Shown: piece after piece, positions 41,223-47,497 of the stretch | How positions within the stretch are numbered: position 1 is the stretch's first letter | How the letters are laid out: every line of letters begins with the position of its first letter | Assembly (NCBI RefSeq): GCF_000265385.1 | Contig: NC_018013.1 | Location: forward strand, 3,003,001-3,067,000 | Length of the DNA stretch: 64,000 nt | Reading direction: 5' to 3' | Source of the DNA: Aequorivita sublithincola DSM 14238 | GTDB lineage: Bacteria > Bacteroidota > Bacteroidia > Flavobacteriales > Flavobacteriaceae | The notes under the pieces: generated by a model | Seen by the model: only the letters and a program-made list of their open reading frames with translations | Database searches by the model: none | Told to the model about the DNA's origin: nothing | Translations under genes and position numbers: made by a program

Positions 41223-41501
41223 CTATTGATTAATCTTAATTAATATGGTGCTATTAATTTCAATCATACAATTGTCTTTTTTCGCATTTTGAATTAGTTT
41301 TGAAACTATCTCTTTTGAAACCTTGAGTTCTTCCAAGCGTGTCTTATACTTTTCGGGGTTTCCTATATTGCGCACTTCAAGACTAAAAATCTGACGATTA
41401 TTAAAGCGAATCTTATCTCCAATAATTGAAAATAATATTTCTGTAGCCTCGTCTGGGGTAAATTCTCCTTTTATTAAATCTACTATTGCCTCTTTATTCA
41501 T
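41223..41501 (-). CDS. Small hypothetical protein, 92 residues
   Basis: It starts at the ATG at 41501 (a TTG one codon upstream is less likely). The sequence opens MNKEAIVDLIKGEFTPDEAT with an acidic helix and is mixed alpha/beta, with an FSLEVRNIG segment in the middle and a strand-like C terminus EINSTILIKIN. No signal or membrane helix is seen. I do not recognise the family. It is divergent from the LysR gene (90 bp apart), sharing its AT-rich regulatory region, and convergent with the tRNA cluster. Confidence 0.6.
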   Translation of the reverse strand: MNKEAIVDLIKGEFTPDEATEILFSIIGDKIRFNNRQIFSLEVRNIGNPEKYKTRLEELKVSKEIVSKLIQNAKKDNCMIEINSTILIKINQ

Positions 41502-41550
41502 CAATTTATTTTTTATTTCTTCTTACAAATATGAAGATGTTTTGTCATAT

Positions 41551-41566
41551 ATTTTTATTTATATTT
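41551..41566. promoter_or_regulatory. AT-rich 16-mer shared with the region upstream of dabB
   Basis: ATTTTTATTTATATTT lies 25 bp before the LysR ATG and occurs again at 47356-47371, 84 bp before dabB. It may be a LysR site, but the sequence is simple enough to recur by chance. Confidence 0.3.
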
Positions 41567-41591
41567 ACTATGCAATCAATAAAATTATTTT

Positions 41592-42515
41592 ATGAATTAT
41601 ACACTGAATCAGCTCAATATATTTTTGAAAATAACAGAATTTAAAAGTATTACCAAAGCCGCTGAAGCCCTTTACTTAACTCAGCCTGCGGTATCTATTC
41701 AACTTAAAAATTTCCAGGATCAGTTTGAAATTCCTTTAACAGAAGTGATTGGAAGGCAACTTTATGTGACTAATTTTGGTGAAGAAATTGCAGAAGCTGC
41801 CAAACGTATTTTAGCAGAAGTGGAAACAATGAAGCACAAAGGCCCTGCTTTCAAAGGCCAACTTACTGGAAGATTGACAATTGCCGTTGTTTCTACGGGA
41901 AAATATGTGATGCCCTTTTTTCTCTCTTCATTTTTAAAGCAGCATAATGGAGTAGATCTTGTAATGGACGTTACAAATCGCTATCAAGTTTTGGAGTCTC
42001 TTGAAAAAAACGAAGTAGATTTTGCGTTGGTTTCGGTTTTACCAGACAACTTAAAAGTTGAGAAAATAACCCTTATGGAAAATAAATTATTTCTCGTGGC
42101 AAACCCAGAATTAGCCAAACCAATTTTAAAAGATAAAAGAAAAACGTTCGAAAATTTACCGTGGATTTATCGGGAGGAAGGCTCTGCAACACGCCAATCT
42201 ATGGAAAGATTTATTGCCAATAAACAGATTAAAATTTATAAAAAAACACAACTCACCTCCAACGAAGCCGTTAAGCAAGCAGTTTTAGCTGGTCTGGGAT
42301 TTAGCATTATGCCTTTAATTGGCTTAAAAAATGAATTGAATAAAAACGAAATAGAAATTGTTCCTGTAAAAGGTCTTCCCATAAAAACTGCTTGGAATTT
42401 AATATGGTTAAAAGGGAAGAAATTTTCTCCCGCTGCCCTAGCCTACTTAGACTTTTTAACAAATAATATTGACGAGGTTATAAATACTAATTATAAGTGG
42501 CTGGAAGACTACTAA
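41592..42515 (+). CDS. LysR-family transcriptional regulator next to the DAB operon
   Basis: 307 residues. An N-terminal winged helix-turn-helix (about 3-62) has FKSITKAAEALYLTQPAVSI, the canonical LysR recognition helix region, followed by a linker helix and a periplasmic-binding-type effector domain (about 90-295). The HTH most resembles CbbR/RbcR-type regulators, which control CO2-fixation and carbon-concentration genes in autotrophs. It ends 11 bp before the 3' end of the dabB-dabA-DUF6671 operon on the other strand, so its natural target is that operon, though this is inferred from position. Its effector is unknown. Confidence 0.93.
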   Translation: MNYTLNQLNIFLKITEFKSITKAAEALYLTQPAVSIQLKNFQDQFEIPLTEVIGRQLYVTNFGEEIAEAAKRILAEVETMKHKGPAFKGQLTGRLTIAVVSTGKYVMPFFLSSFLKQHNGVDLVMDVTNRYQVLESLEKNEVDFALVSVLPDNLKVEKITLMENKLFLVANPELAKPILKDKRKTFENLPWIYREEGSATRQSMERFIANKQIKIYKKTQLTSNEAVKQAVLAGLGFSIMPLIGLKNELNKNEIEIVPVKGLPIKTAWNLIWLKGKKFSPAALAYLDFLTNNIDEVINTNYKWLEDY

Positions 42516-42526
42516 TTAAAATAATA

Positions 42527-43387
42527 TTAAGGGTTACAATAATCGCAAAACGTGGGATCCTGAAAATGTGTGCCAAGCTTGTTTCGCTCACAACTAAAAT
42601 TACATTTTTGGCATGAATAAACATATGTCTTCACTCCTTTGGTAGGCAAATTGCATAACTGACAGCGTAAGCCGCGCAATGCTTGGATTATGGAAAAGCC
42701 TGGAGCATTACACTCTGGACAAAGAGAATTTATAGTATCTAACAAGTTTTTCGTAGCCAAACCTATTGCAAGCATTCGGGTTGAGTTATTCATTGCCCGC
42801 ATATCGGTTTCTGCGTTAATCGTCTTGCCCTTATCCAATAATTCCAAAACCTTTTTTTTTAATAAAATGAAATCCTTAAAATCCTTATAAATATTTTCTG
42901 AATTATCTTTATCTACTTCCTTTAAAATAATTCCATGTTCAGGGAAACCGATATGTTCCGTAAACTCTGCTAAATCATTTAAATTTTCAACTTTTTGATG
43001 ATTGAAATTGGTCTTCTCAGTAAAATGGCGCCCTATAATTTCGAAGTTATTTTCTAAATCTATAAAAACTACCAACTCCTCGTTTCCAGTAATAAATGGA
43101 CTCTCTGGATGTGGCCCGAAAGAACCTTCACTCGCTATCGCCAACGTTTCTTTGCAGTCTAAAAGTGCCGCGAAAGCTTTTGCGCGAGCGGTTTCCAAGG
43201 GGCTTTTAACGCGTTTAATTTCGCCACTAAAAGTGCCAAATTGATCCGTGTTAAATCCCTTCGGTACTATACATTTCATTGTGAATTCAGCTTCTAGCAA
43301 GGGTGCAATTACTTTTTCCTTAGAATGCATAGTGGCTATTACCACTCGCCTATTTTTAAAAATTTGAAAACCCCTATATTTTTTCAT
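42527..43387 (-). CDS. DUF6671-like protein with C-terminal zinc ribbons, third gene of the DAB operon
   Basis: 286 residues. The N-terminal two thirds contain RRVVIATMHSKEKVIAPLLE, KSPLETARAKAFAAL and LAIASEGSFGPHPESPFITG, which look like a conserved enzyme-type domain I cannot assign mechanistically. The C-terminal part (about 223-286) has four cysteine pairs in CPECNAPGF, CQLCNLPTKG, CQKCNFSC and FCDYCNP, two probable zinc ribbons. It matches what I recall as DUF6671. It begins 16 bp after the dabA stop, so it is in one transcript with dabB and dabA. A role in maturing or regulating the transporter, for example zinc delivery to DabA, is a hypothesis only. Confidence 0.72.
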   Translation of the reverse strand: MKKYRGFQIFKNRRVVIATMHSKEKVIAPLLEAEFTMKCIVPKGFNTDQFGTFSGEIKRVKSPLETARAKAFAALLDCKETLAIASEGSFGPHPESPFITGNEELVVFIDLENNFEIIGRHFTEKTNFNHQKVENLNDLAEFTEHIGFPEHGIILKEVDKDNSENIYKDFKDFILLKKKVLELLDKGKTINAETDMRAMNNSTRMLAIGLATKNLLDTINSLCPECNAPGFSIIQALRGLRCQLCNLPTKGVKTYVYSCQKCNFSCERNKLGTHFQDPTFCDYCNP

Positions 43388-43403
43388 TCAAAAAATGATT
43401 ATT

Positions 43404-45794
43404 TTAAACCGCAGTCGCAACTTCAACTTTATTTAAAACCTCGTCCTTTTTAGTGTTCACGTCAAAAGATAGTACAGGATTCCATATCATTCCTTTTGAA
43501 TATCTTTTGATACGGTTACAATCCTTTGGATCCATTACCATTAAATAAATCCATTCATTGTTCATTAAACTTTTCAAATTTTCATTCTTATTTAAAATAT
43601 TTTCAATATTCTCAATCGGCGCTTGTATAATCACTGATAATCGCAATGGTTGATGGTACATTTCAGTATCGCTTTGTTTTACGGATTCTAACGGAAGACC
43701 TGTTTTTAAATCACCACCGTTACCTTGAACCACTCCATATTTCCCGGTTATATTATGCGTTATTTTTGAACCACCCCCAAAAGTTTCATTATCAACAGTT
43801 GAAAAGTAATAGTGACTGTTAATCCATTGAGTAACCACCATCGGGCCTTGCATTATTGCTTCCAGCGCGGCGCCTTCTAAATCTTGCTCCCAATTATAGG
43901 AATGTAAAAAATAACGACCATCGAGGTTTAGATTTTTCGTCAATGAACGTGGTGCGATAAGAAAACTTGAATTTTTGGCAAGTCCCCATTCTGGTCTGGT
44001 TTCAGACCAATTATTTGCGTTGCGCTGTGCCTGCGATATACTTTTTTTGGTGTTATTAAGACGTTCTGCTGTAGCATTTTCTTGTGCTTTGGCGAGGTTA
44101 GCCTTTATCTTTTGCAATGCTTTATTCTGAATGTTTGGAATGTCGGCATCAAAGATTACAATTTCATCCGTTGTTGTGTTGTGCTCGGCTCCAATAAAAA
44201 CGGTGTCCGGTGGAATTTCAATTGCATATTTCTCCATTAAGGTTTTACGCACATCTTCCAAATTGGCCAATTTGGCAAACATTCTCGCATTGTGTCTTCC
44301 TGGACTCGCGGCACACGCGCCACAATCTAAACTGGAACCAAAAGGATTGTTTGCAGTATGGCTTCCGTGGCCTACAAAAAGTACTACCGGTGCAAAGGTT
44401 TTCCATCCTGTAAGGTCAAACGCTCCTTTTACTATTGCAACTTTTTCATCCAATGGAATATCAAGATGTTCGTGGTTTTCTTCGGAACACTTGTTTATTT
44501 TTGGTTGGTATATTCCTTCGTAATCGGTTGCTTTCAAATTAATTTTTCGGTAATTATAGCCTGAAAATAATGTTCTACCAACTAACGAAAAACCGTAAAA
44601 AATACCAGAACCTTCCACATAACCAAAAGCTGATGGAAGCATATTCTTTAGCCTTCGAAAGAAATATTCGTTAAAATTTTTCATTTGAATTTTTTTGGCA
44701 AATTTTTCAGCTTGTTCAGTTTTGCTTTTCTGTGGAATTTCTGAAACAATATAAGCCGATCCTAAAATTGGCGGACACGATTTGCGAACAAGACCGTCAT
44801 TTTCGTTTTTATAATCCATCGCAATTCCGAAGAAACCTGCATAACCGAAGGTTTCGTAGTTACCCACGTTTTCAATATGCCTTCTCATCGATTCCGAACG
44901 GGTGTCGATGCAAAGTGCGAATTGTGCATCGGGAATTTGTTTGTTGGAAATTTTAGATTTTAATTTAATGTTGTTTTTTTCTAACGTATTCGCCATTTGT
45001 TTCTGCCAACTAGCTTCCCAAGCTTTTAACCAAAGAAGACGAAGCGCTACGGTTTTTAATTGTTCTCTAGAAGAAGTATTATTCGGAAGAAACGCTACCC
45101 CTAATTGTTTCGCAATAAAAAGTCTTACGGCCAAGTAGTCCAGCAAGGTTATTGGATATTCTTTATGCCAAGCCGTATGGTTTTCATTTCTGTGCTTTAT
45201 ATAGCCCGTCCAACCCGGAAGTGCTGCCAAATGATGTTTGAATATTGCTAGATTTTCCTCTTGTGAACAATCTTTCAGCAAACTTTCAAGTGCTTCAGCC
45301 GCTGTTGACGGTATTTCGTTAGTATTTCGAACTTTTATTTCAGAATCATATTTTGCCAATTTTCTCCAGGAATTATAGAATCCATCGCTTTTATTCGGCA
45401 TTTCCCACTCCGCCAATCCTTCGTCCATGAAGGCAGCGAGCCATTTTGAAACAATTCGATCGAGATTTGAATCGTGGTTTCTTTTAGCAGTAACTGTTTC
45501 AATCTCCATTTGCTTTAAGGATTCCGAAGGCGTAATTTCAAATCCGTTTTCTTTCAGCAAATTGGCTACCTCGCTTTCTTGAATTTCATTGTTTTGCAAA
45601 GCTTGACGATACAAAGAAACTTCTGGAAAAGATCTTGCTCCAAAAAGAGTTTCTGCTTGGTTTACTGCTTCAGAAAAATGATTCTTTTCAAACCCAACCA
45701 ACGGATTGGAAGTTACAAAAGAATAAAGTGGCCATGTGATTCCTACAATTTCTGAAGCTTCATTAAGACTTTGCTGCAATTTTGAATTAATCAT
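43404..45794 (-). CDS. dabA: DabA, inorganic carbon accumulation protein (DUF2309/UPF0753)
   Basis: 796 residues, the expected size. DabA is a soluble, membrane-associated protein with a beta-carbonic-anhydrase-like zinc site. With DabB it hydrates CO2 vectorially so that bicarbonate accumulates. The zinc and active-site residues of the characterised Halothiobacillus DabA (C351, D353, H524, C539) are matched in pattern here: C295 and D297 in ALCIDTRSES, H476 in FVGHGSHT and C491 in SSLDCGACA, with the same 15-residue H-to-C spacing. Its ATG overlaps the dabB stop by 4 bp (ATGA), so they are coupled. DUF6671 follows at 16 bp. Confidence 0.94.
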   Translation of the reverse strand: MINSKLQQSLNEASEIVGITWPLYSFVTSNPLVGFEKNHFSEAVNQAETLFGARSFPEVSLYRQALQNNEIQESEVANLLKENGFEITPSESLKQMEIETVTAKRNHDSNLDRIVSKWLAAFMDEGLAEWEMPNKSDGFYNSWRKLAKYDSEIKVRNTNEIPSTAAEALESLLKDCSQEENLAIFKHHLAALPGWTGYIKHRNENHTAWHKEYPITLLDYLAVRLFIAKQLGVAFLPNNTSSREQLKTVALRLLWLKAWEASWQKQMANTLEKNNIKLKSKISNKQIPDAQFALCIDTRSESMRRHIENVGNYETFGYAGFFGIAMDYKNENDGLVRKSCPPILGSAYIVSEIPQKSKTEQAEKFAKKIQMKNFNEYFFRRLKNMLPSAFGYVEGSGIFYGFSLVGRTLFSGYNYRKINLKATDYEGIYQPKINKCSEENHEHLDIPLDEKVAIVKGAFDLTGWKTFAPVVLFVGHGSHTANNPFGSSLDCGACAASPGRHNARMFAKLANLEDVRKTLMEKYAIEIPPDTVFIGAEHNTTTDEIVIFDADIPNIQNKALQKIKANLAKAQENATAERLNNTKKSISQAQRNANNWSETRPEWGLAKNSSFLIAPRSLTKNLNLDGRYFLHSYNWEQDLEGAALEAIMQGPMVVTQWINSHYYFSTVDNETFGGGSKITHNITGKYGVVQGNGGDLKTGLPLESVKQSDTEMYHQPLRLSVIIQAPIENIENILNKNENLKSLMNNEWIYLMVMDPKDCNRIKRYSKGMIWNPVLSFDVNTKKDEVLNKVEVATAV

Positions 45795-47272
45795 AAAGAT
45801 TTTTTATTTGAAGTTAAAATAGATTTTTTATAAGGTTGTGAGTCATTCAACAGTTTTGCATAAAGCCAAGGCCATCTTCTGTAAATACCCAGTTTCATTA
45901 TGAAGAAACCGATTAGAAAAATGATTCCAAATATTATATGTGTGGCAGAAATTGGCAAAGCTGCATCGACCATCGGCATAGTTCCCATTAAAAATGTCAC
46001 CGCATTGTAGAGTAATGCATAGAGAATTATACCCACTGTAAAAAGTAATATTGGATAAATTATTTTTTGAAAAGAATTGAAAATTTCCTGTTTCACAATA
46101 TTATAGGTTACTTGTCCAACGGTTATTGCAACAATGAGGGTTAAGATAATTCCACTGTCCATAGAAGTGCTTTTTCCCGTGAGATAAGAAAAAAGCACCG
46201 CACCAATAGCTCCAAAGATTAGAACTACCAAGGCCTGTACTGGTGTGATTACTATTTTATATGGCTTAACGGGATTGGTGTTTTTAATTTCCTCTCCCGC
46301 TGAAAGAAATAAATATGCTTTATAAAACCCGTGTAAAATAAGGTGTGCAACGGCTGCATTAAAGAAACCTAAGCCACACTGCATTATCATAAATCCCATC
46401 TGGGCAATTGTGGAACAAGCTAATTTTTGCTTCACATTTACTTGCAACAGTTTTGTAAACTGTGCGGTTACAGCAGTAATTCCTCCAATTATAAAAAGAA
46501 GCGTAAAGGTATGTGATTCAAAAAATAAGGTAGAAAAAAATGCAAGTAGAATTCCTGCACCATTTACAAATCCAGCGTGCATAAGTGCAGAAGCAGGTGT
46601 AGGAGAAGTCATTGCCGATAGCAACCAGCGCTGAAATGGATACATAGCTGATTGTATTATCGCTGCCATAATTATAAAGATGGCTGCCATTACAGTTATA
46701 TAGGTTGGAAGTGAACTAAGGTTTTGAATTATGCCATCTATATAATACATATTTGTTTGTGTTGCCAATAGCAGCAATCCTGCTCCAAGAAAAAAAGTAC
46801 CCAGTAAAAAGAATTTTTGGGCATATCTGGCTGCTTCCCTAGCTTCAGCCCAAGATTTGTTTATCCCGATTAGTTTGGCCATAAAGATTCCCATAAACAA
46901 CCAAGAACTTACAAAGAGAAGTATGTGGTTGGACATTAGTAAAAGCATTACGGAGAATAAAAAACCTAAACTGTTTATTGTAAAACTTAGATGATACGTA
47001 AAACCATTTAAATAATTCCGTGCATAAGTACTTACAATGGCGCTAAAAAATGTTACGGTTGTCCAGATTAAAATGGTAAAACCATTTATTTTAAAAATAT
47101 CGTTCCATTGCCACAAAATAGTATTAGGTAAGTAATATAGAATTGTGAAGAGATTTGTGAAAAACAGAACCCAGAGAAAGATGGGAACGATTGTGTAAAT
47201 TTTAGAAAGATGAAATGATTTTTGTTTTGGAAGCGTTTGTTTTAAATTTGATTGATTCAGGATGGCCTGCAT
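45791..47272 (-). CDS. dabB: DabB, NuoL-like membrane subunit of the DAB system
   Basis: 493 residues from the ATG at 47272; a TTG three codons upstream is less likely. It is a polytopic protein with about 13-14 helices of the NADH-quinone oxidoreductase subunit 5/Mrp-antiporter family. The family motif appears as PFQRWLLSAMTSPTPASALMHAG, matching the conserved W-L-P-x-A-M-x-x-P-T-P-x-S-A-L-x-H-A of NuoL, and MIMQCGLGFFNAAVAHLILH follows. It lacks the long C-terminal helix of true NuoL. No other nuo gene is present and the stop overlaps the dabA start, so this is DabB, which couples cation flow to DabA. Confidence 0.93.
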   Translation of the reverse strand: MQAILNQSNLKQTLPKQKSFHLSKIYTIVPIFLWVLFFTNLFTILYYLPNTILWQWNDIFKINGFTILIWTTVTFFSAIVSTYARNYLNGFTYHLSFTINSLGFLFSVMLLLMSNHILLFVSSWLFMGIFMAKLIGINKSWAEAREAARYAQKFFLLGTFFLGAGLLLLATQTNMYYIDGIIQNLSSLPTYITVMAAIFIIMAAIIQSAMYPFQRWLLSAMTSPTPASALMHAGFVNGAGILLAFFSTLFFESHTFTLLFIIGGITAVTAQFTKLLQVNVKQKLACSTIAQMGFMIMQCGLGFFNAAVAHLILHGFYKAYLFLSAGEEIKNTNPVKPYKIVITPVQALVVLIFGAIGAVLFSYLTGKSTSMDSGIILTLIVAITVGQVTYNIVKQEIFNSFQKIIYPILLFTVGIILYALLYNAVTFLMGTMPMVDAALPISATHIIFGIIFLIGFFIMKLGIYRRWPWLYAKLLNDSQPYKKSILTSNKKSL

Positions 47273-47308
47273 AATTTTCAAAGTTTTTAAAAATTCAAAT
47301 TTTCACGC

Positions 47309-47324
47309 TGATAACTATTTATCA
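47309..47324. promoter_or_regulatory. Candidate operator: TGATAA-N4-TTATCA dyad upstream of dabB
   Basis: TGATAACTATTTATCA is a perfect 16-bp inverted repeat centred about 45 bp upstream of the dabB ATG. No TAnnTTTG element is seen close to dabB, so an activator-dependent promoter is possible. LysR proteins bind such interrupted dyads. Confidence 0.45.
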
Positions 47325-47497
47325 ACGGGACAAATGTCCAAAAACCTTTTCATTAATTTTTATTTATATTTTATATCATATACATAAAATATTTTAATGC
47401 ATTAAAACTAATGCATTGTGTGAAGGGTTCATTTAGCTAAATGAGATATTTTAAAGTCAGATATAATAATTTGAAGGAGAATAACTTAATTATAAGC

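Follow-up and report, generated by a model that had tools for sequence, protein, structure and literature searches.

A DAB locus with a DUF6671 gene, a LysR-type regulator and a repeated DNA element in Aequorivita sublithincola as a probable low-inorganic-carbon module

We analysed a window of 64,000 nucleotides from Aequorivita sublithincola DSM 14238 (contig NC_018013.1, positions 3,003,001 to 3,067,000), in which the two genes of a DAB system, dabB and dabA, are followed by a gene of the DUF6671 family and accompanied by a LysR-type regulator gene, a small gene for a protein of about 90 amino acids (aa) and two copies of a DNA element. We think it likely that this locus represents, with DAB as its pump, a LysR-controlled module for low inorganic carbon, which would serve a biosynthetic demand for bicarbonate other than that of Rubisco. 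The module would occur mostly in Bacteroidota, with a type of pump that varies among its members. At low internal CO2 or bicarbonate, the LysR protein, a relative of CcmR and CmpR, would act at two near-identical elements and switch on dabB-dabA-DUF6671 as well as the divergent small gene. DabAB would then fill the cell with bicarbonate by vectorial hydration of CO2, paid for by the membrane potential, and the bicarbonate would go to biosynthesis instead of Rubisco. In relatives, a similar LysR gene and the same element appear to precede operons with an SbtA-type transporter, Sua5, dihydroorotase or NADP-isocitrate dehydrogenase (IDH), carried in place of DAB or in addition to it. The DUF6671 protein might either protect nucleotide and tRNA metabolism under bicarbonate limitation or bring a nucleotide signal for carbon status back to its resting level.

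The genome is a single contig of 3,520,671 bases (99.75% complete). On the minus strand the gene order is dabB-dabA-DUF6671; dabB and dabA overlap by 4 bp, as a preliminary description of the window had stated, and 16 bp separate dabA from the DUF6671 gene. Also in agreement with that description, lysR on the plus strand converges on the operon, ending 11 bp from its last gene. The small gene on the minus strand is divergent from lysR. The earlier inventory was correct for dabB, dabA and lysR, but lacked the repeated element and two genes, the small one and that of DUF6671. The features are as follows.

45791-47281, minus strand: dabB, membrane subunit, NuoL/MrpA-like (PF00361 1e-32; DabB2 of 9rd0 1e-29)
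43404-45794, minus strand: dabA, beta-carbonic-anhydrase-like zinc subunit (PF10070 5e-236; alignment to DabA2 of 9rd0; residue check)
42527-43387, minus strand: DUF6671 gene, 286 aa, third in the operon (PF20376 4e-67)
41592-42515, plus strand: LysR-type regulator, apparently nearest to regulators of Rubisco and inorganic carbon (Pfam, NCBIfam, PDB 5y2v 161 bits)
41223-41504, minus strand: small gene for about 90 aa (93 codons), ATG at 41501 (AF2 model, alignment, own profile)
41545-41569, minus strand: putative operator copy 1, ahead of the small gene (shuffle test; exact core twice in the genome)
47350-47374, minus strand: putative operator copy 2, ahead of dabB (shuffle test; exact core; matrix score)
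41526-41529, minus strand: TTTG, 15 bp downstream of operator copy 1 (sequence; same spacing in relatives)
47331-47334, minus strand: TTTG, 15 bp downstream of operator copy 2 (sequence; same spacing in relatives)

The listed start of dabB is a TTG, the ATG at 47272 being the likelier start. The closest named relatives at the locus are Aequorivita spp.; A. lipolytica (L023) has its genes arranged in the same way and shows 80% identity in DUF6671 and 84% in DabA. Beside the operon in the window (locus L094), no Sua5, dihydroorotase, PurK or isocitrate dehydrogenase gene was seen.

The match of DabA to PF10070 covers the entire profile, and the top solved relative of DabB is DabB2 of PDB entry 9rd0. 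The residues C295, D297, R299, H476 and C491 of DabA align to C351, D353, R355, H524 and C539 of DabA2 in the same structure, so that the four residues named in the preliminary description (C295/D297/H476/C491) are indeed present and aligned. With 796 aa the protein is compared to a solved DabA2 chain of 870 aa, and the alignment is strong from 284 to 768 and weak at the N-terminus. A passage of PMC13144422 describes two cysteines and a histidine of DabA2 as zinc ligands and an Asp-Arg dyad as holding the zinc-bound water, and reports that alanine changes impair growth under limiting CO2. Since the active-site residues of DabA are kept, the family match is full-length and DabB is nearest to DabB2, the pair is by sequence a DAB/MpsAB system, and its predicted role in transport has good support from homology. 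The preliminary description regarded a DAB system in a heterotroph as surprising. This view did not hold, because DAB/MpsAB systems of heterotrophs are already published: passages of PMC6689103 report that MpsAB of Staphylococcus aureus complements an Escherichia coli carbonic anhydrase (CA) mutant and name Bacteroidetes among the phyla with MpsAB homologs, and a passage of PMC13144422 also mentions DAB in heterotrophs.

Regarding the carbon setting of the genome, neither the Rubisco large chain (PF00016) nor the carboxysome shell protein (PF00936, BMC) was found, while the same searches were positive in 5/14 and 2/14 control genomes, respectively; this agrees with the earlier remark that nothing in the window suggests Rubisco. 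We call the organism a probable heterotroph because of the missing Rubisco match and because of the nature of Aequorivita, which we take to be heterotrophic. The Sbt_1 transporter had no match in this genome either. A search for other carbonic anhydrases, which the preliminary description had suggested, gave two Pro_CA (beta-CA) matches in the genome, and the one that we read has 215 aa and no obvious signal peptide. According to passages of PMC8552792, a cytosolic CA would convert imported bicarbonate to escaping CO2, and CA and DAB rarely coexist, a pattern reported there for Firmicutes. In our phylum sample of 296 Bacteroidota genomes, Pro_CA was found in 183, and mutual exclusion of CA and DAB was rejected, as Pro_CA is present in 14/20 genomes with DabA and in 169/276 others (Fisher p 0.49).

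The regulator was earlier called CbbR-like, a label that is reasonable but imprecise. Its best solved relative is 5y2v ('Rubisco operon transcriptional regulator', 161 bits), which we take to be of the CcmR kind, followed by CmpR 5z49 (96 bits, effector part); the entry that comes next over the full length is a putative LysR regulator (95 bits). Among the NCBIfam models the CbbR model NF045990 comes first with 181 bits, but this is below its cut-off of 450 bits, and a LysR model for selenium metabolism is almost level with it (179 bits, cut-off 250). The suggestion that the regulator is dedicated to the locus agrees with the distribution of its putative operator, since AAATATAAATAAAAATNNATGA occurs exactly twice in the 3.52-Mb genome, once ahead of the small gene and once ahead of dabB. 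A longer version of the operator has two matches in the window, a number reached in 0/100 shuffles. When up to three mismatches were allowed, 11 places were found in the genome (two exact, one with 2 mismatches and eight with 3) compared to 9 for a reversed control pattern, and we claim no third operator. With a matrix built from 7 Aequorivita sites, the two window sites, both part of the training set, scored 50.7 and 49.4, and the next place in the window 11.7.

The matrix scan located the element in 21/30 other regions, each time between lysR and the gene adjacent to it, and in each of them 0/200 shuffles (first-order Markov resamplings) were as good; the match in L053 lies on the opposite strand and is barely above the shuffles. 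It is also present at loci with IDH-first operons or with SbtA, not DAB. In 23 of 24 anchored sites TTTG is located exactly 15 bp downstream of the element, with L029 as the exception (27 regions with the element were examined, 3 of which were not anchored). TTTG is presumably the Bacteroidota -7 promoter element; the arrangement resembles that of an activator site ahead of a promoter, and the LysR protein would bind to the element. According to PMC3401165, NADP+ and 2-oxoglutarate are the effectors of CcmR, and ribulose 1,5-bisphosphate and 2-phosphoglycolate those of CmpR. Because the IDH encoded at related loci consumes NADP+ and yields 2-oxoglutarate and CO2, a feedback through this LysR is an attractive, if speculative, idea. 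In Mucilaginibacter-type dabBA-DUF6671-Sua5 loci (L037, L039, L045, L051) a distantly related LysR (24-29 bits) is divergent from dabB; a different regulator may have been recruited there, because the LysR is another one and the element was not found. Perfect palindromes at 47380-47497, in the stretch that separates the element of dabB from the end of the 7TM-HD gene, are possibly the terminator of the latter gene.

Linkage of DUF6671 to bicarbonate pumps recurs well beyond the window. By protein search with DUF6671 alone we collected 48 loci, mostly from Bacteroidota, together with three cyanobacterial loci, one from Neisseriales and one that carries the label Bdellovibrio. L037 is nearly a copy of L045, and L063 of L069. 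Neighbouring proteins were clustered, representatives were named by Pfam and NCBIfam, and the families to be counted were chosen after viewing these first 48 loci: DabA, DabB, the SbtA-type transporter (PF05982), PurK, LysR, the family of about 90 aa, long-form Sua5 (PF01300 + PF03481; TIGR00057, L-threonylcarbamoyladenylate synthase), IDH (NF006673) and dihydroorotase (NF006688). Within 6 kb of DUF6671, DabA was found at 12 loci, SbtA at 19 and either pump at 31, Sua5 at 21, IDH at 16, dihydroorotase at 10 and PurK at 2; an orthologous LysR was present at 24 loci and another LysR at 4. In 43/48 cases one or more of the pumps and listed enzymes lie within this distance; the five exceptions are the three loci from cyanobacteria, L050, and L038, which is on a contig of 4 kb. 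The preliminary description proposed that the bicarbonate is used by carboxylases, for example in anaplerosis or fatty-acid synthesis. A supply for purposes other than Rubisco is still the likeliest use; none of the recurrent neighbours (Sua5, dihydroorotase, PurK and IDH) was named in that description.

For an independent test, genomes were drawn evenly from the phylum and from the family, regardless of neighbours. A pump was located within 6 kb in 6/10 full-length DUF6671 loci and at least one listed family in 10/10; without the window and L086, which repeats L045, the numbers are 4/8 and 8/8, and these eight DUF6671 proteins share at most 67% identity with the first set. The count leaves out the partial DUF6671 sequences of L089, L091, L092 and L093 and the broken frame of L102. 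Among these, L091 is near SbtA, IDH and a beta-CA, L093 near dihydroorotase and Sua5, L102 near dihydroorotase and L089 near a LysR gene, while nothing was found near L092. Six pump-linked loci out of 11 correspond to an approximate p of about 2e-11, with the broken L102 counted and at a chance rate of 0.6%; this rate for Bacteroidota, like that of 1.2% for cyanobacteria, is our own estimate. In the phylum sample DabA was present in 20 genomes, DUF6671 in 10 and Sbt_1 in 69, and DUF6671 was found in 4/249 genomes of the family sample. Genomes with DUF6671 carry DabA in 5/10 cases versus 15/286 others (p 1.7e-4; the DabA of G142 is only partial), Sbt_1 in 5/10 versus 64/286 (p 0.057) and either of the two in 7/10 versus 72/286 (p 0.0045), with p values that treat related genomes, which are not independent.

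These numbers bear on the simplest alternative, namely that the window contains an ordinary MpsAB-type DAB pair, and that the genes for DUF6671, the small protein and LysR lie next to it by chance or by hitchhiking, with no shared role. DAB/MpsAB in heterotrophs is known, DUF6671 is as rare as just described, and three quarters of the DabA genomes (15/20) do without it. However, the linkage is seen again in many other families and also where the pump is an unrelated one, the same element precedes dabB and the small gene with no other exact copy in the genome, and it is shared by SbtA and IDH loci. We therefore consider such a chance neighbourhood quite improbable.

DUF6671 was also found in 27/117 cyanobacterial genomes. 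We read 29 cyanobacterial loci (26 plus L041, L042 and L065), of which L154 has no DUF6671 frame, leaving 28. In 3/28 loci DUF6671 is near genes for BCT1 or for CO2-uptake NDH-1: in L142 it adjoins CmpABCD-type genes, with a 1-bp overlap with the ATPase gene, in L150 it precedes the binding-protein gene of a CmpABCD-type set, and in L139 the genes ndhF3, chpXY and one of the NdhD type are close by, with DUF6671 on the other strand and a single gene separating it from them. The binding proteins of L142 and L150 score 723 and 639 bits to a solved bicarbonate-binding protein, compared to 427 and 451 bits to NrtA. In L155 DUF6671 lies beside IDH. At an assumed chance rate of 1.2% the association with inorganic-carbon genes has a p of about 0.005, and the link to inorganic-carbon uptake in cyanobacteria is a loose one. 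One or two genes upstream of DUF6671, a UPF0093 gene is present in seven loci (L133, L134, L136, L137, L139, L140, L145), a naming that rests on one member by Pfam; we take UPF0093 to be HemJ-like.

The module could also be one for pH or sodium homeostasis, with a Mrp-like cation translocator and a CA-like subunit that do not supply carbon. DabB is NuoL/MrpA-like, the genome already has beta-CA matches, and a passage of PMC6689103 reports that MpsABC complements an E. coli strain deficient in Na+/H+ antiporters. On the other hand, SbtA-type transporters replace DabAB in related loci, a few cyanobacterial DUF6671 genes are near BCT1 or CO2-uptake NDH-1 genes, several neighbours use bicarbonate and the LysR appears nearest to regulators of Rubisco and inorganic carbon, which makes this explanation highly unlikely in our view.

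For the DUF6671 protein, an AF2 model (pLDDT 93.5) was obtained, the core of which matches the ITPase-like fold in fold searches, with a best Foldseek E of only 7e-4; a profile search against PDB sequences gave nothing convincing (best E 0.005). In an alignment of 49 sequences we noticed an apparent small alpha/beta insertion in this core at about 127-197 and, at the C-terminus, eight cysteines arranged as four CxxC pairs, which would form zinc ribbons. Because of the ITPase-like fold, the likeliest substrate of the protein is a nucleotide or a compound that resembles one. HcgB shows that this fold serves other chemistry too. In L102 (G429) the gene is broken into two frames with an internal stop and still adjoins dihydroorotase. 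The small protein has no Pfam family and is predicted as beta-alpha-alpha-beta (AF2 pLDDT 94.5, pTM 0.77), with no match among solved structures (best Foldseek E 0.07) and 6 protein matches in all, itself included. Matches to its profile, which was built from such loci, lie within 6 kb of DUF6671 in 28/48 loci. Two paralogs of this family are located side by side in L034, L044, L053 and L060, and L059 has one on each side of DUF6671.

Bicarbonate is a substrate of Sua5, the threonylcarbamoyl-AMP (TC-AMP) synthase of threonylcarbamoyladenosine (t6A) formation. All 8 genomes with full-length DUF6671 other than that of the window contain, besides short YrdC forms, a Sua5 frame of 320-338 codons, which was not found in 10 genomes of the same families without DUF6671 (8/9 versus 0/10, p 1.2e-4). 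These controls are 10 of 20 listed DUF6671-negative genomes, the Sbt_1 carriers G053 and G088 not being used. In 3/8 genomes the long Sua5 and DUF6671 are not neighbours (G362, G049, G146). A passage of PMC5951830 gives human YRDC a bicarbonate Km of 13 mM for TC-AMP formation, and with a Km in the millimolar range t6A/TC-AMP synthesis is a process that cells may protect at scarce CO2. In a sharper form of our reading, the module would exist for bicarbonate-limited synthesis of t6A, purines or pyrimidines, with DUF6671 itself taking part in these reactions (its substrate could be TC-AMP or a purine intermediate, for instance) and the pump as a mere feeder. The neighbourhoods with Sua5 (21/48), dihydroorotase (10/48) and PurK (2/48), the presence of long Sua5 even where it is unlinked and the ITPase-like fold argue for it, but the genome of the window lacks the long Sua5. 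Moreover, the control genomes are also without DabA and Sbt_1, and long Sua5 may therefore track pumps and not DUF6671; G084, with DUF6671 and long Sua5 and neither pump, counts against a link with pumps. Taken together we regard this sharper form as rather unlikely. A broader proposal, which we offer tentatively and would sooner doubt than affirm, is that DUF6671, with its ITPase-like fold and many cysteines, is a previously unrecognised inorganic-carbon enzyme of Bacteroidota and cyanobacteria. It would produce or break down a nucleotide-like compound by which a shortage of bicarbonate is reported or relieved. With a helper of about 90 aa and often long Sua5, it would form a low-CO2 module with exchangeable pumps (DAB, SbtA, perhaps BCT1) that ties CO2 supply to the synthesis of t6A and nucleotides.

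Several observations weigh against a low-inorganic-carbon module as the explanation of the locus. DUF6671 is absent from 15/20 DabA genomes and from 64/69 Sbt_1 genomes of the phylum sample, and because DUF6671 was the search bait, the 48 loci do not measure how constant it is at pumps. No pump was found within 6 kb in 17 of these 48 loci, some of them on short contigs. The DUF6671-linked DabAs do not form one clade, and the DabA tree requires at least five gains or losses of the link on supported branches ('not linked' refers to some 1.5 kb of flanking sequence at each locus, and the branch of L066 is long). The matrix scan did not find the element in 9/30 lysR regions, namely the four Mucilaginibacter-type loci, which have a different LysR, then L091, where the LysR match is weaker, and L035, L040, L046 and L060 despite an orthologous LysR. 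Of the two beta-CA matches in the genome, the one without obvious signal peptide could waste imported bicarbonate. Only short Sua5/YrdC frames of 210 and 213 codons are present in this genome, and the Sua5 controls lack the pumps as well. Finally, no gene for inorganic-carbon uptake was recognised in 25/28 cyanobacterial loci, where most neighbours are unnamed.

Among the DUF6671 neighbourhoods, HlyD-like and TolC-like (OEP) genes are found a few genes upstream of DUF6671 in L031, L040, L046 and L066, and an ABC transporter gene accompanies them in L031 and in L066; in the latter, the Neisseriales locus, these genes lie between dabBA and DUF6671-Sua5. A gene of the TerC membrane family converges on DUF6671 in L027 (10843-11784, minus strand, by Pfam) and in L028 (10834-11775, minus strand, by clustering).

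Bacteria without Rubisco need bicarbonate for biosynthesis, and to our knowledge the sensing of and response to low CO2 in such bacteria have been little studied. The locus offers a concrete regulon with a defined DNA element, of which DUF6671 and the small protein are likely parts. In one open-access collection of papers we found none under the name DUF6671, none on a Bacteroidetes SbtA with dihydroorotase, none by title on such modules with an SbtA bicarbonate transporter of heterotrophic Bacteroidetes and, among the matches listed for Aequorivita and bicarbonate, none on topic by title. What appears to be new is the conserved setting, which combines LysR, the DNA element, exchangeable bicarbonate pumps, bicarbonate-linked enzymes, the small protein and DUF6671.

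Compared to known systems, the DUF6671 protein shares, according to its model, the core fold of the ITPase-like proteins YjjX, RdgB/HAM1, Maf and HcgB, and differs from them in the apparent insertion, the four C-terminal CxxC pairs and motifs of its own. Both subunits of the window pair are homologous to those of DAB2 from Halothiobacillus neapolitanus (DabA2-DabB2, PDB 9rd0), including the five zinc and dyad residues, whereas here no Rubisco or carboxysome shell match is present in the genome and a DUF6671 gene follows dabA. The cyanobacterial regulators CcmR/NdhR and CmpR, the best solved relatives of the window LysR, control genes for inorganic-carbon uptake. CcmR senses NADP+ and 2-oxoglutarate, and relatives of the module described here encode NADP-isocitrate dehydrogenase; in contrast to the cyanobacteria, the host is a member of the Bacteroidota without detected Rubisco. 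MpsAB of S. aureus is likewise a two-gene system for dissolved inorganic carbon, which according to a passage of PMC6689103 is needed in ambient air. S. aureus HG001 is described in a passage of PMC8552792 as having no CA gene, whereas the genome of the window has two beta-CA matches. In S. aureus mpsAB is followed by mpsC, while in the window dabBA is followed by DUF6671 and accompanied by LysR and the repeated element.

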